Positions 2,946-62,632 of a stretch of DNA of 64,000 nucleotides are shown piece after piece. The stretch comes from a virus. The DNA lies in IMG/VR virus record IMGVR_UViG_3300017971_000214, positions 1 through 64,000 of that record. The stretch is one strand, 5' to 3'. A model generated the notes under the pieces. That model had not been told where the DNA came from, searched no databases, and worked only from the letters and a program-made list of their open reading frames with translations. Both the position numbers and the translations under genes were made by a program. Numbering within the stretch: position 1 is the stretch's first letter; each line of letters opens with the position of its first letter.

Positions 2946-3755
2946 ATTTGGATCTTCACCCCATTCGGGTTTCTGAGCGTCGTCGCTCACCGAGACATCA
3001 AGAAGTCCGTGCTCGTTCGAGCGCGGGCGAAGAAGGACTTGGAGCAGTTCCGGGAGAAGTACTGCAAGCGGCTCGGGCCGATCACCTTCCTGGATTGGTC
3101 GGACTATCCCTACCGAGCTACGGTGGGGCGGTGGGCCTTCGCACACGCGATGTTCAAGATCTCCCTGGACCTCACCTACACGAACTTCAAGTCCTCCGTG
3201 AAGGACAACAAGCGCCACAACGTCTACATGAAGGTGTGGACCGTCATGCGCGAGGCCGAACGCAACGGCAACATGGGCGACGAGCAAGCCGCCAAGCGCG
3301 GCCGTGCCAAGCAGTACCACCGGGGCTACACCCCGAGCACTGCCGCCGGCCAGCGCTTCTTCGAGTGGCATGGCGACAGTCAGTGGTGGCTCGATGACGA
3401 GGACGAGGACCGAGGCAAGAAGAAGAAGGGGAAGGCCAAGAAGGGCAACGGCAAGGCCAAGAAGCTAAAGGCTCGCGACGCCGACATCCCCGACCTCCCC
3501 ATCGACCCGCCCTCCCACGAGGAGCTGTGCGAGCGCGAGGAGCAGATGGCCCGCGACGCTGGCGTCTTCGACGACGACATCATCAACGACCCCTTCGGCT
3601 GGGACGACGGGCTCGGAGGCCGGAGCGAGTCCTACGATGACGAGGACCCAGACGGAGACGCCGGGATGGACCGCGGCGAGCTAGCCGACGAGCCTGGCGG
3701 GGTGCTGGAGTTCGACTCGATCAACGACGTGATCAACCACTTCAAAGCGAAGTGA
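2946..3755 (+). CDS. conserved WIFTPFGFLSVV-type protein, probable AUU start
   Basis: 269 aa if started at ATT 2946. The N-terminus WIFTPFGFLSVVAHRDIKKS followed by VLVRARAKKDLEQF closely resembles a widespread bacterial/phage hypothetical family that begins with exactly this block. The first ATG/GTG/TTG in frame is GTG 3009, which would remove it. An in-frame TAA at 2928 limits the start to ATT 2946 (AGGCGGG about 8 nt upstream) or rarer codons. The middle contains FLDWSDYPYRATVGRWAFAH; residues from ~155 are a lysine-rich patch (GKKKKGKAKKGNGKAKK) and the tail is Asp/Glu-rich, likely disordered. Function unknown. Confidence 0.7.
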   Translation: MWIFTPFGFLSVVAHRDIKKSVLVRARAKKDLEQFREKYCKRLGPITFLDWSDYPYRATVGRWAFAHAMFKISLDLTYTNFKSSVKDNKRHNVYMKVWTVMREAERNGNMGDEQAAKRGRAKQYHRGYTPSTAAGQRFFEWHGDSQWWLDDEDEDRGKKKKGKAKKGNGKAKKLKARDADIPDLPIDPPSHEELCEREEQMARDAGVFDDDIINDPFGWDDGLGGRSESYDDEDPDGDAGMDRGELADEPGGVLEFDSINDVINHFKAK

Positions 3756-4546: not shown

Positions 4547-5173
4547 ATGGAGGAGTCGTTCACGGTAGAGAAGCACGAGCTGAAGGCCCTGGCGGCCTTC
4601 GTGAGCAAGAGCTGGGACCGCTCGCGCCTGACGAGCCTCTACTTCTACGAGGATGGGGCGCTGGCGGCATCGGACGGGCACACGCTGGTGGTCCGGGAGC
4701 ACCGGAAGACCCCCCAGACGAAACGGCCAGAGCGCCAGAAGGTCTTCGGGGTTCCGAAGGACTCGCTGGCGAGGCTCATCGGCGCGCTCGGCCCGAAGCA
4801 GGCGGTGAGAATCGGGCCGCTGGCGGACGAGGGCTGGGGGGAGTTTGAGATCTACGACCCCGCGCCAGGCTGGGACGGCCCTGGCGTGCCAGTGATGAAG
4901 GGCCACGTGATACTCAACACGGAGTCGGAGCCCCCGAGCTTCTTCAAGGTCGTCCCCGAGTTGGAGTCTGGCGTACCCGCAGCGGGGAAGGTCGGCTTCA
5001 ACCTGGACTACCTGCGGAAAGTGGATTTGATCCGCATCGCCTGTGGCCATCGAGCTGGCAGAGGCGTCGAGATGTACCCGCCTCGGGAGGAGCTGGCGCC
5101 TGCGGTGTTCCGGGTGGAAGCCTATGGATCTGACTTCCACTGGCTGGCGGTCATCATGCCCCTCAGAATCTGA
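4547..5173 (+). CDS. beta-clamp-like DNA polymerase processivity factor homologue (short)
   Basis: 208 aa, against about 370 for bacterial DnaN. Family signs are LYFYEDGALAASDGHTLVVR near residues 28-47, resembling the beta-clamp ATDGHRLAV segment, and a C-terminus ending HWLAVIMPLRI, like the MPMRL end of beta clamps. A protein of this length would hold about two of three clamp domains, so it could form a ring with a different subunit number or be a clamp-related inhibitor. ATG 4547 is preceded by TAATAT at 4531-4536, giving a nearly leaderless message; the GGAGG after the ATG is not a usable ribosome site. Assignment rests on short motifs and is tentative. Confidence 0.5.
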   Translation: MEESFTVEKHELKALAAFVSKSWDRSRLTSLYFYEDGALAASDGHTLVVREHRKTPQTKRPERQKVFGVPKDSLARLIGALGPKQAVRIGPLADEGWGEFEIYDPAPGWDGPGVPVMKGHVILNTESEPPSFFKVVPELESGVPAAGKVGFNLDYLRKVDLIRIACGHRAGRGVEMYPPREELAPAVFRVEAYGSDFHWLAVIMPLRI

Positions 5174-41958: not shown

Positions 41959-42714
41959 ATGCATGAACCGGAGGACGTGATGGGTCTGAAGCCAGGAGAG
42001 AATCCGAGGCATGTGTTACCGAGACACGAGGAGCGCAAGTCGGTCTTTTACGAGTTCGATCTCGCAACGGTGGCGGAGGCCGCTGGGGTCAACTATCAGA
42101 CGGCACGCAAGGCGGTCAGCACGGGGCGCTTGCAGCTCAAGGACGCGACAGCGGCTGAGCGCTTGCGTTCGGTGGCGAGCTACATCCAGCGGGCGCTGGT
42201 GCACAAGAGCAAGCCCATCCACAGCGACGAGGCTGTAGGCATGCTGAGCCCCGAGATGAGAAAGTGGTGGGCCGATCGGTGGCCCACGTTTGAGCTGTAC
42301 CGATGCGCGCACCCCGGATGTGATGAGTTGCTGTTCGGCCCTGGAGCCTGCGCGGAGCACGGCGGGGAGAGAAGGCCGCTCATCAAGCTCGACACGGACG
42401 GCCATGTCGCGCTTCTGCTGGGACGAGACTATGTCCCGCTACATCGCCTCGTGGCGCAGACGCCGAAAGGTCAGCACACGCACCACCGAGACGGCAACCC
42501 GTGGAACAACCGCTGGCAGAACTTGGAGTCGTTGTCTCCTGCGGAGCACGAATCTCGGCACATGGGGAGTGTGCTGTCGGCCAAGGTCGTCAAGAAGCAG
42601 CCCCCACGCCGCCCCTTCCGTAGCGAAATGGGTGCGGTGTCGAAGGCGGAGATGCAGAAGAAGGTCGACGAAGCCTACATGCGGGGGCTGAAGGACGGGA
42701 AGAAACGAGCGTAG
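41959..42714 (+). CDS. HNH homing-type endonuclease, 251 aa
   Basis: N-terminal helix-turn-helix (LATVAEAAGVNYQTARKAVS), a possible zinc site (CAHPGCDELLFGPGACAEHG), then an HNH_3-type nuclease: YVPLHRLVAQTPKGQHTHHR, DGNPWNNRWQNLESLSPAEH, ending with a histidine in SRHM. The H-H-x-D-G-N-x-x-N-N-R-x-x-N-L pattern is typical of phage free-standing homing endonucleases. It has its own ACTACAATTG promoter. Confidence 0.8.
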   Translation: MHEPEDVMGLKPGENPRHVLPRHEERKSVFYEFDLATVAEAAGVNYQTARKAVSTGRLQLKDATAAERLRSVASYIQRALVHKSKPIHSDEAVGMLSPEMRKWWADRWPTFELYRCAHPGCDELLFGPGACAEHGGERRPLIKLDTDGHVALLLGRDYVPLHRLVAQTPKGQHTHHRDGNPWNNRWQNLESLSPAEHESRHMGSVLSAKVVKKQPPRRPFRSEMGAVSKAEMQKKVDEAYMRGLKDGKKRA

Positions 42715-42717
42715 CTC

Positions 42718-42981
42718 ATGGCCGCGACGAAGGAAGAGATCAGAGCGTTCTACGAACAGATGCTTGACGAACACGTGGACCTCGCCGAAGAGCTGATGCA
42801 CCTCAGCCGCCGTCTAGTGCGCACGCGCGGCGTGAAGGTAACGCGCTGCGACTTCCTGAACGGACTTTCGATCACCACCATCGAAGACCCCTATGCGGAC
42901 CCTCGCGAGATGGTGCTGCGCAGCGGCATGAGCACAGCACTCGTCAAGCTGGAAGTCGACAAGCCGGAGGGGGACGAATGA
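42718..42981 (+). CDS. hypothetical protein, 87 aa
   Basis: AATKEEIRAFYEQMLDEHVD and a helical first half, then a small strand region. Follows the HNH gene by 3 nt; overlaps the next gene by 4 nt. Confidence 0.55.
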   Translation: MAATKEEIRAFYEQMLDEHVDLAEELMHLSRRLVRTRGVKVTRCDFLNGLSITTIEDPYADPREMVLRSGMSTALVKLEVDKPEGDE

Positions 42982-43637
42982 GCTGGCAACCTATCTGTCA
43001 TGGTGGACAGGTTCTTCGGACCAAGAAAGCCGCGAGGGAGCGAGCGCGGGAGATCCTGAACGGCTACAGCATCGGAGAGACCTTACTTCCCAAAGACTTG
43101 GCTTTCATGCTGTTGTTGTTTGAGCGGCACCCAGAGTTCGACTTGAAGCGGGGCTGCGGGATAGCATCTGTCCAGATCGAGAGTAACTGGAACAGCCGGG
43201 GGTTCTGGATCACCCGAGTGGACGGATCTAGGACAGACATCAGTTACCGTGCGTGCCTGTCCCCACCGACACACGAGCAGAACGTCAGGAACGCGATGCG
43301 TACCGAGATACGCGACCAGATCTGGGACTTCCGTAAGGAGCATCTGAAACCGGAAGCCCGCTGCTCTGTGACCGACGAACCGTTGACGTCCAACAACGTC
43401 CACGTAGATCACAAGTACCCGTTCGAGGATCTGCTGAGAGACTTTCTCGCCGCGTGGGGTTTGAGCGCGGATCAGATAACCATCCGTCCGACCTTTGACA
43501 AAGAGACGGACACGCTTTTGGCTGACCGCGCCCTGGCTGCTGCATGGCAGAAATACCATGGGGAACGCGCAGAGCTTCGGCTGGTGACGAGGTACGCTAA
43601 CCTCCACCTGTTGAGACGGAAGCCTGAGAGTCGATGA
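42978..43637 (+). CDS. DUF3223/DCL-like domain protein with HNH-like C-terminus, 219 aa
   Basis: Residues ~30-90 (YSIGETLLPKDLAFMLLLFE, RHPEFDLKRGCGIASVQIES, then GFWITRVDGSRTDISYRACL) match the DUF3223 domain, with its G-C-G-I and DGS...S-Y segments. From ~125 on, CSVTDEPLTSNNVHVDHKYP and FEDLLRDFL look like a degenerate HNH nuclease with the V-D-H-K/D-Y-P-F segment. DUF3223-nuclease combinations occur in mobile elements. No third motif-3 His is obvious, so activity is uncertain. Confidence 0.65.
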   Translation: MSWQPICHGGQVLRTKKAARERAREILNGYSIGETLLPKDLAFMLLLFERHPEFDLKRGCGIASVQIESNWNSRGFWITRVDGSRTDISYRACLSPPTHEQNVRNAMRTEIRDQIWDFRKEHLKPEARCSVTDEPLTSNNVHVDHKYPFEDLLRDFLAAWGLSADQITIRPTFDKETDTLLADRALAAAWQKYHGERAELRLVTRYANLHLLRRKPESR

Positions 43638-47287: not shown

Positions 47288-50071
47288 ATGGGACGAAAAG
47301 CATGGGCGAATCGGCGGAGCGGAACCTGCGAGGCGTGCGGCACTTCGGTGGCGGCGCAGGCCGGCTGGGTGTACCGGGACGATGCGGGTTCCTGGAAGGT
47401 GTGCTGCAAGAGCGCGGTGTGCGGGACGCAGCTCGGCCTCGCTGGGGCGGCCCCCGAGGCGGCGGAGACGCGGGAGCTGACGGCGGACGGTCGCGTACTG
47501 ATGCCCTACGAGAAAGCAGCGCTCCCCTTGCTGCGGGCGATGCCGGGCGCGCGGTTCGACCGTGACGCCTCCCCGAAGTGTTGGCGCGTGTCACTGGATC
47601 CCGGTGACCGGGACCGGCTCTTGGAGCTAGCGGACGAGCTGAAGCTCGCCGTGGCCCCCGAGCTGCGCACCGTGTCGGAGGACATCGAAGCGTTGTCCAA
47701 GCAGCTCATCGCGGACGGCCTGTACCCCTTCCAGGTGAAGGGCGTGTGTTGGTTGCGGCAGCGACGCCGCGCGTTGCTCGGCGACTCGATGGGACTAGGA
47801 AAAACCATCCAAGTCTTGTTTGCCCTACCCCATCCAAAGGGGTACGGTAAGAATCATGCCGAGAGGAGTGTATCCGAGAACGTCAAATCAGCTCAGAGCC
47901 GCCAAGGAGAATCTAGCCAAGGGGCGGCAGCCGAATGCTCGGCGAAAAGCAAAAGCGACGATGCGGAAGACAGCTCAGACGCCGGAGTGGCGCGCAAAGG
48001 TAAGCGAGGCCACGCGTCGTGCGATGCAGCGTCCCGAAGTGCGAGAGAAGCATCTCAAAGGTCTGAAGGGGAATCCAGTAGGATTCAAGGGGGGAAACGG
48101 ACAGCCTCCAGTTCCGATAGTCGAGTTGGCGGCCATTTTTCTGGAGCCTCTGGGGTTCGTGAGGGAGCTACCAATACGGACGAAAGGCCACGGAACGGAG
48201 TTGCGAGCACCGACACACTACAAGGCAGATTTAGGCCAGCCGGAACTGAAGATCGTAGTGGAACTGGACGGTCCGAGTCATTGGAACAAGCGCCAGCAGG
48301 ACAAGGATCGGAAGAAGACCGAAATCCTGGAAGCACTGGGTTGGACGGTGATCCGCATCCAGCACGGGCGATCGTCATCTGCCCGGCGAGTCTCAAGCTG
48401 AACTGGCGCGACGAGTGCAAGCGGTGGCGTCCGGGCCTGAAGCCTGTCGTGCTCTCGGGTCGCGGCAGCTTCCGGCACCCCGAAGCTGGAGAGGTCATCA
48501 TCACGAACTACGACATCTTGCCGAAGCTACCCCGCTGCACCTGCAAGGCGCACGGTCAGCTGAAGTACGTATCGGGCACCTGGGAGTGGGTGTGCGAGAA
48601 GTGCTCCAAGAAGAGCAACGCCACGGTGACCATCAAGGCCGACCCCGTGCTCGACCTCTCGGGCAAGGGGATCGTCGTGGTCGCCGACGAGTCCACCGCG
48701 GTCAAGAACTTCAAGGCCATCCGGTCCAAGGTCTTCAAGGCGCTCGCCGTCACCGCCGACAAGGTGTGGCAGCTGTCGGGCACCCCGATGCTCAACCGCC
48801 CGTTTGACCTCTACGGGATGCTCCAGTCCGGAGACATGGCCTACGAGGTGTTCGGTGGCTGGAGGTCCTTCCTCCGCTGCTTCAACGGCTACAAGAACCG
48901 GTGGGGCGGCTACGAGTTCGGCGAGCCTCTTCCCGAGACCCCTGAGCGCCTGCGCCGTGTGATGCTGCGCCGGCTCAAGACCGAGGTGCTGACTGATCTC
49001 CCTGAGGTCACCTACCAGACCCTCACCGTCAACAGTCTCGACAAGGGCCTGAAGGCGGAGCTGGACGCCGCGTGGAGCGCCTGGAACGACGAGGCCGAAG
49101 CACTCGACGGGCTCGCCGATGGTGCCCCCGCAGACCTTCCTCCCTTCGAGCAGTTCTCGAAGCTGCGCGCGAAGCTCGCTGCCAGCCGCATCAACGCGAT
49201 GCTTGATCTGGTCGAGCAGTACGAGGACAACGAGCAGCCGCTCATCGTCTTCTCCGCGCATCGCGCCCCCATCGACACCTTGGCCAAGCGCGAGGGGTGG
49301 GCCGTCATCACCGGCGACACCAACGCTGAGGCCCGCAACGAGGCCGTCAAGCGCTTCCAGAGCGGCGAGCTGAAGGGCATCGGCCTGACCATCAAGGCCG
49401 GCGGCTACGGGCTCACGCTGACCCGCGGCAGCCACCTTCTGTTCGTCGACCTCGAATGGACCCCCTCCGCCAACGCGCAGGCAGAGGACCGGGCTCGTCG
49501 TATCGGGCAGACCGCCGACTCGATTCAGGTCACCCGCATGGTCTCCGACCACCCGCTCGACCAGCACGTCCTACGGCTTCTCGCTGAGAAGACCGCCATG
49601 ATCTTCAAGGCTGTCGAAGCCGAGGTGCAGTACAAGCGGGCGCCCAAGCCCAAAACCGCCCAGCCCAGCGGTTGGGTGCAGGAGAGCGACGCGGACCAGC
49701 AGGCGCGCAAGGATGCCATCGAGCAGGCCGCCAAGGAGGCCGAGAAGGCTCAGGCGCAGAAGCGCATCGACAAGATCATCCTCCAGGAAAAGGACCGTCA
49801 GGGCACCGCTCCGGGCGAGACCTTGGAGCTGACCTCCGAAGTCCGCCAGGCTCTCACCGATGCCTTCTACTTCATGAAGAGCGTCTGCGATGGCGCGCAG
49901 GAGAAGGACGGCCAAGGGTTCTCCAAGCCCGACGTCTACCGCACCGCGTTCCTCGCATCGTGGATGGACACCGGAGAGGAGACCGCGTTCCGCGCGGCGG
50001 CCATGATCCTCTGCCGCTACAGGCGGCAGCTCGGCAAGCAGTTCCCCATCCTTTTCAAGAAGGCGGCTTGA
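47288..50071 (+). CDS. SNF2-family DNA-dependent ATPase interrupted in frame by a nuclease insert
   Basis: 927 codons. Superfamily 2 ATPase that would translocate on double-stranded DNA. N-terminal cysteines (CEACGTSVAAQ...CCKSAVC), then a HARP-like/N-terminal region, motif I GDSMGLGKTIQ, Ia ARAIVICPASLKLNW, a zinc-like insert (RCTCKAHGQ...CEKCSKKS), motif II VVADEST (in place of DEAH), III LSGTPMLNRPFDLYG, and V-VI ending LEWTPSANAQAEDRARRIGQ. Between motif I and Ia a 525-bp in-frame insert (about 47837-48361) encodes a Ser/Glu/Arg-rich low-complexity segment and, in the +1 frame, a homing endonuclease. Flanking CATCCA copies suggest the join ALPHP/ARAIV. No intein motifs are visible in the insert. 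Confidence 0.85.
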   Translation: MGRKAWANRRSGTCEACGTSVAAQAGWVYRDDAGSWKVCCKSAVCGTQLGLAGAAPEAAETRELTADGRVLMPYEKAALPLLRAMPGARFDRDASPKCWRVSLDPGDRDRLLELADELKLAVAPELRTVSEDIEALSKQLIADGLYPFQVKGVCWLRQRRRALLGDSMGLGKTIQVLFALPHPKGYGKNHAERSVSENVKSAQSRQGESSQGAAAECSAKSKSDDAEDSSDAGVARKGKRGHASCDAASRSAREASQRSEGESSRIQGGKRTASSSDSRVGGHFSGASGVREGATNTDERPRNGVASTDTLQGRFRPAGTEDRSGTGRSESLEQAPAGQGSEEDRNPGSTGLDGDPHPARAIVICPASLKLNWRDECKRWRPGLKPVVLSGRGSFRHPEAGEVIITNYDILPKLPRCTCKAHGQLKYVSGTWEWVCEKCSKKSNATVTIKADPVLDLSGKGIVVVADESTAVKNFKAIRSKVFKALAVTADKVWQLSGTPMLNRPFDLYGMLQSGDMAYEVFGGWRSFLRCFNGYKNRWGGYEFGEPLPETPERLRRVMLRRLKTEVLTDLPEVTYQTLTVNSLDKGLKAELDAAWSAWNDEAEALDGLADGAPADLPPFEQFSKLRAKLAASRINAMLDLVEQYEDNEQPLIVFSAHRAPIDTLAKREGWAVITGDTNAEARNEAVKRFQSGELKGIGLTIKAGGYGLTLTRGSHLLFVDLEWTPSANAQAEDRARRIGQTADSIQVTRMVSDHPLDQHVLRLLAEKTAMIFKAVEAEVQYKRAPKPKTAQPSGWVQESDADQQARKDAIEQAAKEAEKAQAQKRIDKIILQEKDRQGTAPGETLELTSEVRQALTDAFYFMKSVCDGAQEKDGQGFSKPDVYRTAFLASWMDTGEETAFRAAAMILCRYRRQLGKQFPILFKKAA
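47837..48361 (+). mobile_element. 525-bp insert in the SNF2 gene, dual-coding
   Basis: Bounded by CATCCA direct repeats (47831-47836 and 48356-48361) in the same codon phase. Its length is a multiple of three, so the host frame runs through as 175 codons without a stop, giving a disordered-looking segment rich in Ser, Glu, Arg and Gly. The +1 frame holds the endonuclease. A self-splicing intron is unlikely because the nuclease gene fills the insert, leaving no room for a ribozyme core. Boundaries are inferred from protein continuity. Confidence 0.7.
47856..48401 (+). CDS. NUMOD3 plus Vsr-like homing endonuclease, nested in +1 frame
   Basis: 181 aa from ATG 47856. N-terminal NUMOD3-like basic repeats (RGVYPRTSNQLRAAKENLAK, TAQTPEWRAKVSEATRRAMQ, RPEVREKHLKGLKGN), then a Vsr/DUF559-type nuclease: THYKADLGQPELKIVVELDG, with D and then E-L-D-G-x-x-H-W, and DKDRKKTEILEALGWTVIRI. 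The catalytic-type pattern (Y-K-A-D...V-V-E-L-D-G-x-S-H-W...G-W-T-V-I-R-I) is intact. Its last 13 codons and stop use host sequence encoding motif Ia in the other frame. It has no clear ribosome site. Confidence 0.8.
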   Translation: MPRGVYPRTSNQLRAAKENLAKGRQPNARRKAKATMRKTAQTPEWRAKVSEATRRAMQRPEVREKHLKGLKGNPVGFKGGNGQPPVPIVELAAIFLEPLGFVRELPIRTKGHGTELRAPTHYKADLGQPELKIVVELDGPSHWNKRQQDKDRKKTEILEALGWTVIRIQHGRSSSARRVSS

Positions 50072-53682: not shown

Positions 53683-54030
53683 TCAGCCCTTGTCCGTGCA
53701 GGCGTGGCGGTCCTCGCACGTTTCGATCTTCGCTATGCACGCAGGGTGCAAGTCCACGCCGTTCTTCTCGGCGTTCTTGAAGACATCCACGCAGCTCACG
53801 CCTCCCGGCGTAGGCTCCCACAGAGGGCGCCCATCACGGGACATGCACTGCAACTCCTCGTAGCGCTTGCACGCCGCCTCCGCCGGATCCACGTCCGGAG
53901 GGAGCACAGGGTCTGGCTCTACGCCGGCATCCGGAGCTGTTGGGATGTGGGGATCCGGGCAAGCCGGGCACCCTACAGCCGTGACGGCGAGGAACAGTAC
54001 AGGGGTCAGTAGTAAAAGCAGCTTCTTCAC
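53683..54030 (-). CDS. cysteine-rich lipoprotein, 115 aa
   Basis: MKKLLLLLTPVLFLAVTAVG then C: a signal peptide with lipobox (VTAVGC). The mature part has a Pro/Asp-rich linker and a small domain with six cysteines (AACKRYEELQCMSRDGRPLW, SCVDVFKN, ACIAKIETCEDRHACTDKG), similar to short lipoproteins of myxobacterial type. It may be an outer-membrane spanin partner or lectin-like. The start overlaps the stop of the peptidase gene. Confidence 0.7.
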   Translation of the reverse strand: MKKLLLLLTPVLFLAVTAVGCPACPDPHIPTAPDAGVEPDPVLPPDVDPAEAACKRYEELQCMSRDGRPLWEPTPGGVSCVDVFKNAEKNGVDLHPACIAKIETCEDRHACTDKG

Positions 54031-56069
54031 TTCACGAACTCCTTAGGGATCTTGACTGCCCACCAGTCAGTGACTTGATGCCAAGCCACCCACTCCCAGG
54101 ACATCCGAAAGAACCCTCCCGAGTGGAACCCAGAGGGATCTGACGCACCCCAATCCTTGCCCCAGGAATTGAGAACCCAGAGGCCGTCTTGGTCGTAGGC
54201 CACGGCGCACATCATGTGCCGCCCGCTGAACCCCTTGGGAGGCTTCAGCGGCTCGGGGTTCTTGATGCCCTTGTAGCGCTTGAAGTCGTCATCGACGATG
54301 GTGCCGAAGATGACAGGGTGGCCCTGGGAGATTGCCGACCGCACTTCTTCAGCTCGGCCTGAAAGGCCCCAGATGTTGTAGTAGCCCTCGATCCACTGCT
54401 GGTCGATGGCCGCGGCAGTGGCGTCGAAGTCCGGAGGTCGGTTGATGTTGGCCGGATCGAAAGCCCACATCTTCTCCTCGCAGAAGCCCATCCCTTTGGT
54501 GGCCTGCCAAGCGAGTCTGGGGAAGCATCCGAGATCTAGCTTCTCGGTCCCTCCCCGGTTGCGCGTGTGCCAGTAGCCGAACATCACGCTGAGGGGCTTA
54601 CGGTCAGCTATTCCGTGGACGCCCTGTGCGATGAAGTGCTGCTGTTGGATCGACTGCCACACGCAGTTATGTACGGCCACTCCGTCCGCGATGTAGGTGT
54701 GGTCCCCTTCCACTTCTAGGTTGTAAACCGGGAAGTTGGCCGGGGTTTCAGGGATGTTCACTTCACGGATACGACACAAGAATCCCAGATCGTGTTCCTT
54801 GTACCAGGAGTAGGATGCGATAGTAACGTCGTGCTCCTCCAGAACCTCTTGAAACTCGGGGAACACTCGGAGGATGTTTTTCCCATAGAGACTCAGTTCA
54901 CGCCCAGGGGCGTTCTGATGATCTTGTTCGCGTCGGAGTTGGGTGCTCAGCTTGACTCCGCTAATGGAAGCCAGCCTAAATAGCCCCCGATGGAGGGCTT
55001 TGGAGCTGGTGACTCCTTGAACAGCGGCACTCTTTCGTATCGAGCCGTCTTTCTTCTTTCGGAATCTTACCGGCTCTGAACTGCCGTCTCCTTCAAACCA
55101 ACCTCGAAGAACGGCCAATCGAGTCGAGAGCGGAGCGCGGAAACACACCGTAGGCATGTACTTGTGCAGCGCTCCCTCCCCACAAAGATTGTGGAATACC
55201 TGGGCTAAGGTGGAATTGTGGACCAGCACGCGGGAGGTTGACTCCCTGGATGGGGGCTCGTCCAAAACCCCTTCTACCCCGAATACATCGCCCAGAGCCT
55301 CGATCACGAAGTTGTGCAGGGTGCTTTCTTCGCGGGCAAAAGTGAAAGCAAGCCCCTGGAGGGTTCCCGAAGGCTTCAGGAAAGATCCCTCAGCCAAGAA
55401 CAGTCCGATGAGACGTCCGAGAGTAGAGTCCAACACGACTTCGGACGGAAGTTCGCTCCCTTTCCTACCCTGATACGCTCGAATCTTGTCATTTTCCTCC
55501 CAGAAGTCGCCTTCCAGATAGTCACGTGGACATAGGACTGCATCGGGCTTGTCACCTGACAGATCCAGGTTGGCCGGGAGAAGAACGTAATCCCCCCCTT
55601 CCAACTCGGAAGCCCTCTTCCACGTTAGTGGTCCCGCCTCGAAACTACCGTGCTTGGCCCGAGGGGATACATTCGGAAATACAGCGAAGGGGTGTTCCTC
55701 TGTAGCCGTCGCCGGGTAGATCCAACCTTGAACATTGATCTCGTATAGCGTTCCGTTGTAGGAGCGCTCCGAACATTGAGCCACGGTTCCTACTCGGCCT
55801 GTATGAGTCCGAACCCTGTTGCCAGGGACCAACTCTTCGATGGGCCTTTCGGTGAAGTCTTCCATCACGACCAACGTTCCGGCCGGGAAGCACGAGTTGG
55901 TGTTGCGCTGGTCGTTGATGAAGTCGATGAACTGGATCATGTCCATATGCTCAGACGGGGCAGCCGGAAGGCTCACCCCGAACAGAGCAGTTTCATCCCC
56001 GACCAGTTTGAAGTCGCGGTCATCGACCGGCGACGGGATGTATCCCATCCCCCTCTCGACCATCGTCAC
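54027..56069 (-). CDS. papain-like cysteine peptidase carrying an intein
   Basis: 680 codons, of which residues 60-468 are intein. The mature host protein would have 271 aa: MGYIPSPVDDRDFKLVGD, then NDQRNTNS joined to CVWQSIQ. Catalytic elements are Gln (NDQRNTNS), Cys (first residue after the intein), His (SGRHMMCAVAYD) and Asn (LWVLNSWGKDWG), the papain (C1) order. There is no signal peptide. The intein directly precedes the catalytic Cys, which is also its +1 splicing residue, so no active peptidase can exist before splicing. Lies in a minus-strand set with two lipoproteins and a membrane protein. Confidence 0.85.
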   Translation of the reverse strand: MTMVERGMGYIPSPVDDRDFKLVGDETALFGVSLPAAPSEHMDMIQFIDFINDQRNTNSCFPAGTLVVMEDFTERPIEELVPGNRVRTHTGRVGTVAQCSERSYNGTLYEINVQGWIYPATATEEHPFAVFPNVSPRAKHGSFEAGPLTWKRASELEGGDYVLLPANLDLSGDKPDAVLCPRDYLEGDFWEENDKIRAYQGRKGSELPSEVVLDSTLGRLIGLFLAEGSFLKPSGTLQGLAFTFAREESTLHNFVIEALGDVFGVEGVLDEPPSRESTSRVLVHNSTLAQVFHNLCGEGALHKYMPTVCFRAPLSTRLAVLRGWFEGDGSSEPVRFRKKKDGSIRKSAAVQGVTSSKALHRGLFRLASISGVKLSTQLRREQDHQNAPGRELSLYGKNILRVFPEFQEVLEEHDVTIASYSWYKEHDLGFLCRIREVNIPETPANFPVYNLEVEGDHTYIADGVAVHNCVWQSIQQQHFIAQGVHGIADRKPLSVMFGYWHTRNRGGTEKLDLGCFPRLAWQATKGMGFCEEKMWAFDPANINRPPDFDATAAAIDQQWIEGYYNIWGLSGRAEEVRSAISQGHPVIFGTIVDDDFKRYKGIKNPEPLKPPKGFSGRHMMCAVAYDQDGLWVLNSWGKDWGASDPSGFHSGGFFRMSWEWVAWHQVTDWWAVKIPKEFVK
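54666..55892 (-). mobile_element. LAGLIDADG intein in the peptidase gene, 409 aa
   Basis: Starts CFPAGTLVVMEDFTERPIEE (block A), block B around ATEEHPFAVFP, two LAGLIDADG motifs (GLIGLFLAEGSFL and LRGWFEGDGSS), and ends FPVYNLEVEGDHTYIADGVA then VHN with Cys +1. All splicing residues (C1, block-B His, final HN, +1 Cys) are present, so splicing and homing look competent. Confidence 0.88.
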
Positions 56070-60544: not shown

Positions 60545-62632
60545 ATGACAGAGCTGAGCATCCAGCGCATGGGCTCGGGTGAGTTCGAGCCCAAAGCCGG
60601 CCTGATCTACAAAGACGTATTCGACCTGATGAGCCTGTACGAAGGGCTCGCGTTCCGGGCGCCGACCATCGTGGTTGGCCCGAAAGGCATCGGCAAGACC
60701 CTGAGCATCCAGGCGTTCGCGGCGCAGCAGGACTGTCCCATCGTGACGTTCGACTGCTCGGAGGATGTTCGTCGCCAGCACTTGATCGGCATCTTCGTTC
60801 TGCGTGGGCAGGAGACTCCGTTCGTCCTGGGGCCGCTGACGACGGCGTTCGAGGTCGCCAACGAGGTGGGGCAGTGCATCCTGTGTTTGGAGGAGATCAA
60901 CTGTCTCTACCCCACCACTACCGTCTTGGTCCCCTCTGGCGAAGAAGTTCCGATCGAGCGGCTGCGGTTGGGAGATCCTGTTGTTGGATTCGATCCTGCG
61001 GGCGGTCAGTGTTTAGCGCATGTGGTAGAAACCCGGTATCAACGCGCTGACTCCTCATATACAATAGAAGCCGGTGAGGAAATCATCAAAGCCAGCGAAA
61101 ACCACCTCTTTTGGACAAGGAGGGGGTGGGTCCCCGCGAAGTTCCTCCAAGAAGGGGACGAAGTCCTTCGTGTGTGCGAAGTGTGGTTGCCGCAAAAAGG
61201 ACCTGAGGTCTCTTCGGGCGCACGAACGGATGGCTCACGGGAAGAATCCGATGAAGAATCCGGAATGCGTCGTGAAGGTTCACACGGCGGCTCGGAACGA
61301 GAAGATTTCAAAAGCCGCAACAGCGCGGTGGAAGGACCCGGAGTACCGGGAGACGATGAGCGAGTTTCTACGGGAGTTGCGTCCCATGGACAACCCCAAG
61401 GTGAGATCAAAGATGTCCGAAACCCAGAGGCTTCGGATGCTTTCGGAATGGAGGGATCCGAAAAAGAGAGAACGTCGCTTGGAGAGTTGTCGGACGCCGG
61501 AGTTCCGAGAGACTGCGGCGAAAGGGGGAAAGAAGACCGCTGCGTTCTGGAGGTCCCCAGAAGGAAGAAAGATAGCTTCGATGCGCTCCAAGAAGCTCTG
61601 GGCGGACGAGAGACACCGGAAGCTCATGTCCGAAAAGCGAAAACAGCATCTACTGGATCATCCAGACAAGAAGATACAGTTCGTACATGCGGGATGGAAC
61701 GCTCAACGCCCAACGAAGTTGGAACGTCGGGCCATAGAGATTCTAGTCGACCTTCCAGTCTTCTACACAGGGGACGGAACGAGATGGATCACTACACCCA
61801 AAGGGCGACATTTGAATCCGGACTTTTCGGTGGAAGGCAAGAAAGTGATTCTTGTGGATGGGGACTACTGGCACCCACCGAATCAGAAGAGGTCAGAGAC
61901 TTTGGCCTACAAGAGCGCGGGATTCTCAGTTCTTCGCTTGTCGGAAGACCAAGTGAAGAACCATCCAGCACTTGTGCTAAAGCGGGTCCAGAAATTCCTC
62001 TCTGGGTAACCGTTCGAAGAGTCACCCGAAATCTTGAGGCTACTCCTCTGTGCGAAATCGGCCTTACTGGTCCTCACACTTACTTTGCTTCGGGGCTCGG
62101 AACGCACAACTCACTGACACCCCAGATGCAGAAGGTGCTCAACGCCCCAACCGACTGGCGGCAACGCATCGAGGTGCCGGAAGCTCGGAAGGTGTTCCGG
62201 TTGGAGAAGGGCAAGAAGATTTGGGTAACGGGGACGATGAACACTGCGGTATACGGCGGCGTGTACCAGCTCAACGAAGACCTGAAGAGTCGCATGAGGC
62301 TCGTTGCGCTTACCTACCCGAAGTCCTCCAAGGAGAAGGAGATCATCGCCGCGGTCCTCTCCGACACGTCTCTGGATCAGTCGGTAGTCGACCGGGTGAT
62401 TCTCCTTGCGCACGAGACTCGACAGCAGTCGTTGGAGTACGCGCTCAGTACACGCGACGTCGTGCAGTTGCTGGAGGACATCGCGGCTATGGATTTGACC
62501 AGGGCGCTGCGCATCGTACTCGGCAAGTTCGACGACACCGACCGGGACACGGTGGCAGAGAGAATCCAAAGCATCTTCGGCGTGAGCTTCGATCAGACCT
62601 CGCGGCGTCGCGGGGCTGCAGCGAGGGCGTGA
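60545..62632 (+). CDS. MoxR-type AAA+ ATPase carrying an intein
   Basis: 695 codons; residues 120-522 are intein, leaving a 292-aa ATPase. Walker A VGPKGIGKT near residue 44, Walker B CILCLEEIN ending at residue 119, then, after the intein, SLTPQMQKVLNAPTDWRQRI, sensor-1 region TGTMNTAVYGGVYQLNEDLK with R finger SRMRLVALTYP. MoxR ATPases act with VWA-domain proteins to insert metals or remodel complexes; one follows directly at 62634. Splicing should join LEEIN to SLTPQ right behind Walker B, so the unspliced protein should be inactive. GGAGGAGAG ribosome site. Confidence 0.88.
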   Translation: MTELSIQRMGSGEFEPKAGLIYKDVFDLMSLYEGLAFRAPTIVVGPKGIGKTLSIQAFAAQQDCPIVTFDCSEDVRRQHLIGIFVLRGQETPFVLGPLTTAFEVANEVGQCILCLEEINCLYPTTTVLVPSGEEVPIERLRLGDPVVGFDPAGGQCLAHVVETRYQRADSSYTIEAGEEIIKASENHLFWTRRGWVPAKFLQEGDEVLRVCEVWLPQKGPEVSSGARTDGSREESDEESGMRREGSHGGSEREDFKSRNSAVEGPGVPGDDERVSTGVASHGQPQGEIKDVRNPEASDAFGMEGSEKERTSLGELSDAGVPRDCGERGKEDRCVLEVPRRKKDSFDALQEALGGRETPEAHVRKAKTASTGSSRQEDTVRTCGMERSTPNEVGTSGHRDSSRPSSLLHRGRNEMDHYTQRATFESGLFGGRQESDSCGWGLLAPTESEEVRDFGLQERGILSSSLVGRPSEEPSSTCAKAGPEIPLWVTVRRVTRNLEATPLCEIGLTGPHTYFASGLGTHNSLTPQMQKVLNAPTDWRQRIEVPEARKVFRLEKGKKIWVTGTMNTAVYGGVYQLNEDLKSRMRLVALTYPKSSKEKEIIAAVLSDTSLDQSVVDRVILLAHETRQQSLEYALSTRDVVQLLEDIAAMDLTRALRIVLGKFDDTDRDTVAERIQSIFGVSFDQTSRRRGAAARA
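60902..62110 (+). mobile_element. intein with an out-of-frame endonuclease gene in place of its nuclease domain
   Basis: 403 codons. N-terminal Hint part: CLYPTTTVLVPSGEEVPIER, block B ASENHLFWTRRGWVPAKFLQ. C-terminal part: ATPLCEIGLTGPHTYFASGL then GTHN, with Ser +1. Between them, about 280 codons of host frame are Ser/Glu/Gly/Arg-rich low complexity with no LAGLIDADG or HNH motif. In the +1 frame of that stretch lies a complete endonuclease gene. Splicing residues are all present (Cys1, His, final HN, Ser+1). Confidence 0.88.
61074..62009 (+). CDS. C2H2-finger, NUMOD3 and Vsr-like homing endonuclease, nested in +1 frame of the intein
   Basis: Up to 311 aa (GTG 61074; the true start may be later). 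Order: C2H2-like finger FVCAKCGCRKKDLRSLRAHE then RMAHGKN; NUMOD3-like repeats (ISKAATARWKDPEYRETMSE, KMSETQRLRMLSEWRDPKKR, GKKTAAFWRSPEGRKIASMR); then a Vsr-like nuclease, RPTKLERRAIEILVDLPVFY, HLNPDFSVEGKKVILVDGDY WHPPNQKR and YKSAGFSVLRLSEDQV. The P-D-F, V-D-G-D-Y-W-H and L-R-L segments fit the Vsr/EDxHD homing class. The host frame remains open throughout. Confidence 0.85.
   Translation: MRKSSKPAKTTSFGQGGGGSPRSSSKKGTKSFVCAKCGCRKKDLRSLRAHERMAHGKNPMKNPECVVKVHTAARNEKISKAATARWKDPEYRETMSEFLRELRPMDNPKVRSKMSETQRLRMLSEWRDPKKRERRLESCRTPEFRETAAKGGKKTAAFWRSPEGRKIASMRSKKLWADERHRKLMSEKRKQHLLDHPDKKIQFVHAGWNAQRPTKLERRAIEILVDLPVFYTGDGTRWITTPKGRHLNPDFSVEGKKVILVDGDYWHPPNQKRSETLAYKSAGFSVLRLSEDQVKNHPALVLKRVQKFLSG

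Follow-up and report, generated by a model that had tools for sequence, protein, structure and literature searches.

Homing nucleases are usually thought to require an intron or an intein to invade the interior of a gene. The locus described here raises the question of how a nuclease gene can occupy the middle of an SNF2-type ATPase gene without either. It lies in the first 64 kb of the 126,260-base virus record IMGVR_UViG_3300017971_000214 (positions 1 to 64,000; hereafter the window), where a 525-bp insert separates helicase motifs I and Ia of the ATPase and carries a nuclease open reading frame (ORF) in the +1 frame. The insert is probably an intronless homing-nuclease gene overprinted on the ATPase gene and retained in the protein as a disordered loop. 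Related loci are designated by L numbers.

Host gene and insert

The host gene (47288-50071, plus strand; ATG at 47288) encodes 927 amino acids (aa) and is open through the insert. It was assigned to the SNF2 ATPases by Pfam matches to SNF2-rel_dom (E 5e-26) and Helicase_C (E 8e-12), by matches to SNF2, ISWI and Ino80 structures in the PDB (E to 8e-21) and by intact motifs I (GDSMGLGKT), II (ADEST) and VI (QAEDRARRIGQ). A PF00176 search detected no second SNF2 domain in the 126-kb record. As a single-sequence query the ATPase gave no matches in viral contigs; insert-free phage homologues were recovered by an alignment-based search.

Comparison with these homologues, set beforehand as a check, placed the insert at 47837-48361 (plus strand), the edges given by the initial annotation. 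GKT and PASxKxW are separated by 192 aa in the window and by 17-24 aa in 48 homologues. A native loop of equal length was absent in 48 of 48 and was ruled out. In the insert-free locus L126, whose ATPase is 45-46% identical to that of the window, the site reads LLGDEMGTGKTVQTLAALPKEFGTLVVCPASLKFNW (short form ..LAALPKEFGTLVVCPASLKFNW), and in the window it reads LLGDSMGLGKTIQVLFALPHP (..FALPHP), followed by 175 Ser/Gly/Ala/Arg/Glu-rich codons in the ATPase frame and by ARAIVICPASLKLNW. With a single copy of CATCCA (HP) the exact native length is restored.

Copies of CATCCA flank the insert at 47831-47836 and 48356-48361 (both plus strand), and their identical codon phase, already reported in the initial annotation, was reproduced at a spacing of exactly 525 bp. 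The 3' copy is probably a microhomology and also encodes the C-terminus of the nuclease (IRIQH); the nucleases of relatives end in ..RxxH with a stop within a few codons, and the 3' copy falls in the matching stretch of the window nuclease. Because this copy is the nuclease's own code, the repeat is as likely to be microhomology as target duplication. Its use as a diagnostic target duplication was rejected on the same ground, and a further CATCCA lies just upstream (about 47805). Both nested nucleases of this phage also carry the decamer CATCCAGCAC close to their 3' ends (48356-48365 and 61962-61971), perhaps by chance.

No Hint family was found in the window ATPase with Pfam, and the insert edges (HP/KGY..DPHP/ARA) lack His-Asn followed by Cys, Ser or Thr. 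An intein was ruled out by this absence of Hint splicing blocks. Apart from a chance small RNA, searches of the insert against Rfam returned nothing at E <= 10, and the predicted folding energy of the whole insert was ordinary (z-score -1.35). Sequence outside the ORF amounts to ~19 nucleotides (nt), all before the nuclease ATG, with none after the conserved end of the nuclease. A group I or II intron was rejected on these grounds, no ribozyme core being present, and the earlier statement that Hint motifs are missing and an intron core would not fit was borne out. Two RNA hairpins were predicted at the 5' edge (47827-47861, plus strand; UACCCC..GGGGUA and CGGUA..UGCCG), the second of which would cover the nuclease ATG.

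Nested nuclease

The nested ORF (47856-48401, plus strand; ATG at 47856, TGA at 48399-48401) encodes 181 aa in the +1 frame relative to the ATPase. Its product matched DUF559 (E 3e-9), MTES_1575 and DUF2726 in Pfam. The Vsr-like, +1-frame nuclease of the initial annotation was thus recovered as Vsr/DUF559-like, and its NUMOD3 was dropped, since no Pfam match to NUMOD3 was obtained at E <= 1. In the structure model (predicted local distance difference test, pLDDT, 84) a run of N-terminal helices precedes a C-terminal strand/helix core of PD-(D/E)xK/Vsr-like type. The catalytic-type residues D125, E136, D138, H142 and D151 are invariant in 46 relatives, together with G162, W163 and R167. Foldseek matched the model to I-Bth0305I (3R3P; probability 0.97) and Vsr (1VSR; 0.91) at E values of only 0.05-0.06, and the profile match to 3R3P had E 0.029. 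Because the Foldseek E values are near 0.05, EDxHD/Vsr-like is, for this modelled fold, a good description rather than proven membership.

The nucleases of relatives end at or near a conserved histidine, His170 in the window (codon 48363-48365, plus strand). The window copy has lost this stop at its 3' junction, at which the codons of the nuclease (CGC ATC CAG CAC) overlap those of the host (CAT CCA GCA CGG), and runs on to the TGA at 48399-48401 within motif Ia; the borrowed stop had been recognised correctly. A Shine-Dalgarno-like sequence (AAGGAG/GGAGG) precedes the nuclease ATG in L001, L016, L210, L212 and L214. Separately, a perfect 16-bp palindrome, CCCATTATATAATGGG, with TATAAT was noticed ~60 bp or less upstream of the nested ATG of L210, with a near copy in L018; it is possibly a promoter or a start-site hairpin for the nested ORF.

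Open host frame

For statistical evaluation of the open frame, synonymous codons were shuffled within each nuclease, so that protein and codon counts were kept. The ATPase frame of the window contained 0 stops against 5.9 expected (P = 0.0002), an openness beyond chance, and the third frame contained 10 against 8.5 expected. Host-frame stops were likewise absent in 7/7 nested clade members including the window (4.7-9.0 expected; P between 0.003 and <0.00005 each), several of which are AT-rich. The free-standing sister L214 had 5 stops in the corresponding frame (7.8 expected), and the free-standing bacterial DUF559 genes L096, L098 and L103 had 17, 6 and 6. Of 58 viral loci examined across the wider family, 57 were open in the +1 frame (including the non-nested L017) and none in the other frame. 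All 58 wider-family loci that were shuffled had 0 host-frame stops; these were picked after the open frame was seen and include near relatives.

A stop-free frame is needed only if ribosomes read it, and it therefore argues against both an intron and ribosome bypass. Between L001 and the window, changes pile up at nuclease third positions (0.59 per codon versus 0.32 and 0.28), which marks the nuclease frame as the conserved one. In L211 a nuclease Trp codon is changed to TGA (3633-3635) with the host frame still open; the host ORF differs from that of L210 at two positions.

Relatives and insertion sites

The initial annotation had overlooked that the nuclease belongs to a widespread family whose members, with few exceptions, are nested in the +1 frame, in most cases within inteins. 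The clade of the window nuclease, supported by 100/100 with five members in the tree, is free of Hint, intron or other splicing elements, and its members were always located in or beside SNF2 ATPase genes. L210-L215 were found after the tree was built and were assigned to the clade on the basis of 42-55% identity.

Among close relatives the nuclease was found nested at three sites and free-standing in two cases (L017 and L214). The nucleases of L016, L018/L019, L210/L211/L213, L212 and L215 occupy an N-terminal linker of the SNF2 gene, that of L001 the loop before Walker A and that of the window the loop after it. In L017 the TAG stop of the nuclease lies directly before, and overlaps, the ATG of an SNF2 gene. 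In L214 (3300-4150) the nuclease was observed between a truncated SNF2 5' end, cut off shortly ahead of Walker A, and a complete, recoded SNF2 start; from the sequence it looks as if the element had restored the gene that it cut.

A tblastn search with the window nuclease gave matches in 40 isolate phage records, and in 5/5 fetched isolate loci one helicase coding sequence contains the nuclease in its +1 frame. L003-L007 (Pseudomonas phage MR14, Corynebacterium phage phi673 and Vibrio phages 104E43.1, K391 and 1.088.O) carry Hint inteins at the DE/C motif of phage helicases, with the nuclease as a separate +1-frame ORF replacing the endonuclease part; the records annotate a helicase, P-loop or hypothetical protein alone and leave the nuclease unannotated. 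Viral loci outside the window clade that were missed by the Hint-edge pattern nearly all showed, when inspected by eye, a DE/C intein start and usually a ..HN/C end. The nested sites without Hint are linkers or loops, whereas intein-borne relatives sit in the catalytic DE/C motif. Such tolerant positions are expected where nothing removes the insert; the intein-borne relatives, by contrast, carry Hint and should be removed.

Walker A codons and possible mobility

The 45-bp segment that starts at Walker A (GGA CTA GGA AAA ACC) and ends at the insert (47792-47836, plus strand) has the most atypical codon usage of any 15-codon stretch in the ATPase gene, with a G+C content of 50% compared with 70% upstream and 65% downstream, and may represent a co-conversion tract. 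A Walker A other than MGLGKT was found in 5/9 carriers versus 5/48 homologues (Fisher p = 0.005, in a post hoc comparison of related sequences). In L001, L016 and L018, MGLGK-like codons lie shortly before the nested ATG and are possibly carried-over flank. L001 was also seen to contain eight extra bases (TGACCGGC) in Walker A (4570-4585), which give GGC TGA CC GGC, either a frame break or a mimic of bypass take-off and landing sites. The atypical tract, the L001 indel, the L214 truncation and the altered Walker A of carriers are four hints, none of them proof, that the Walker A codons may be the cleavage region.

Fate of the insert

AlphaFold2 predicted the insert as disordered (pLDDT about 30 for ATPase residues 209-352), and the neighbouring helix (172-179) and strand (360-365) well. 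Hydrophobic residues make up 9% of the host-frame insert versus 31% of the ATPase core. We propose that the nuclease gene lodged in the surface loop that joins the helix of Walker A to the strand of motif Ia. Ribosomes would read through the insert, and a hydrophilic, disordered loop of 175 residues would be kept in the ATPase with no splicing required. Internal initiation at the ATG at 47856 would yield the EDxHD/Vsr-like nuclease from the +1 frame. If active, this enzyme probably targets SNF2 genes that lack the insert, with a cut in or close to the conserved Walker A codons; repair would then copy the insert plus some flank into the cut genes.

Several points weigh against this proposal. 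The evidence base consists of metagenomic contigs only, and the co-conversion and target arguments draw on few cases and arose post hoc. The ribosome-binding site of the window nuclease is weak, and the start codon falls within a predicted hairpin. The free-standing L017 also has an open frame (0 stops), though only 2.3 were expected at 71% GC (P = 0.057). A disordered loop next to the P-loop could impair the ATPase. The 8-nt indel in Walker A of L001 breaks the ATPase frame, and at least this host gene may have lost its function or be decoded in an unusual way.

Four other explanations were weighed. A spliced RNA intron (group I, group II or of unknown type), with the ORF overlapping the ribozyme and the host frame open by accident, would fit the frequency with which introns carry homing nucleases and the lack of a protein-level splicing domain here. 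We consider it highly improbable, as the insert leaves room only before the nuclease ATG, has neither a credible Rfam match nor unusual folding, and is stop-free in the host frame of all seven nested clade members although introns do not need this; the three distinct insertion sites, moreover, are all loops or linkers. Equally slight is the chance of ribosome bypass of the T4 gene 60 or mitochondrial byp type, in which the matched CAT CCA codons would serve for take-off and landing. Their in-phase spacing of 525 nt, the hairpin at the 5' edge and the likeness of GGC TGA CC GGC in L001 to a take-off, stop and landing site favour it, but the window offers neither a stop (0 in 175 codons) nor a frame break to bypass, relatives keep open a host frame that bypass makes unnecessary, and the 3' CATCCA is nuclease code. 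At the linker-site relatives no matched codon pair was noticed, though none was systematically searched for. Of the two fates considered in the initial annotation, the disordered loop was therefore kept, and removal by bypass was abandoned in view of the stop-free host frame in every nested relative.

Removal or cleavage at the protein level without Hint, by an unrecognised form of protein splicing or by proteolysis with the ATPase pieces staying together, is unlikely. True inteins house the sister nucleases and are the family's commoner solution, and a disordered loop is plausibly protease-sensitive. However, conserved Cys/Ser/Thr...His-Asn edges are missing, the edge residues vary between sites, and tolerant insertion sites are predicted by retention rather than by removal. 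It is very unlikely that the insertion is recent and harmful, in a decaying ATPase gene whose frame is open by luck. Only one insert-bearing allele is known at the window's site and Walker A of L001 has a frame break, which favours this reading, but the shuffle probability for the window, the stop-free frames of all seven nested members (several of them AT-rich), the intact helicase motifs and a gene open to its end speak against it.

Comparison with known systems

Retention as an overprinted loop has a published precedent that the initial annotation had missed. The ShiLan domain is an insert in the DNA methylase gp65 of mycobacteriophage ShiLan and also occurs in Pacc40 gp60; it has a stop-free host frame, no detectable intein or intron and a hidden out-of-frame endonuclease, for which no ribosome-binding site was found, and its loop was predicted to stay (Arsenault, Gosselin and Gogarten 2025; PMC11855218). 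When ShiLan gp65 was re-read here, the HNH ORF lay in the +2 frame, and host-frame stops numbered 0 against 2.3 expected (P = 0.016, shuffle test). The window insert shares the stop-free host frame, the out-of-frame endonuclease and the absence of a detectable intein or intron. It differs in its Vsr/DUF559-like EDxHD nuclease, +1 frame and SNF2 host, as opposed to HNH, the +2 (third) frame and a methylase. Several of its relatives also have a Shine-Dalgarno-like sequence, its family occurs in inteins and free-standing as well, and its clade occupies three separate nested sites.

The EDxHD homing endonuclease I-Bth0305I (PDB 3R3P) has the same order of conserved residues (E136, D138, H142, D151) and, judging by the model, probably a similar catalytic-domain fold, but is classed with the group I intron homing endonucleases (PMC3943268), whereas the window has no intron. 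Homing-endonuclease inteins are linked to the window by the sister nucleases at DE/C of phage helicases (MR14, phi673, Vibrio phages). The window insert differs in having no Hint, and in the sister inteins, too, the nuclease occupies its own ORF in the +1 frame and is not fused in frame as a domain. Bypass in T4 gene 60 with mobA, like other intronless homing genes, resembles the window in that a homing nuclease is tied to the interruption of a phage coding gene. In T4 gene 60 ribosomes skip an untranslated gap, and the take-off codon is followed by an in-frame stop; the window has neither a stop nor a non-translated gap, and its frame would be read through.

A literature search with partial coverage of subscription papers found no earlier report of out-of-frame nucleases inside inteins; it yielded only the ShiLan papers and one announcement in which an out-of-frame HNH is cited. 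The window insert is well supported as a variant of the recently described ShiLan kind, new in nuclease family, frame, host gene, number of sites and link to inteins. A broader proposal, to which we give slightly less than an even chance, is that one phage homing-nuclease clade specialises on SNF2 genes. It would cut the invariant Walker A codons, lodge nearby and spare the host gene interchangeably by an overprinted loop or linker (window, L001, L016, L210 and others), as a free-standing neighbour (L017) or free-standing with a recoded substitute for the gene's 5' end (L214), with the wider family nested in the +1 frame of inteins. If this is true, out-of-frame overprinting would be a general lifestyle of homing nucleases and not an oddity. 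The ShiLan exception, with HNH-like nucleases in phage methylases, is now joined by a different nuclease family in a different gene at three sites. The stop-free host frame is a statistical signature that can be searched at scale, and the tolerance of ordinary enzymes for long overprinted loops becomes testable. Annotation misses such nested nucleases, which in the isolate phage records examined were hidden under a helicase, P-loop or hypothetical protein gene.

Other intervening elements in the window

An AAA ATPase gene with an intein (60545-62632) contains a second nested nuclease (61074-62009), again in the +1 frame, with 0 host-frame stops against 11.7 expected. A third intervening element of the phage was found on the minus strand, where a papain-family peptidase gene (54027-56069) carries an intein with a LAGLIDADG domain. 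An HNH_3 protein (41959-42714) followed by a DUF3223 protein (42978-43637) may represent further mobile nuclease genes.

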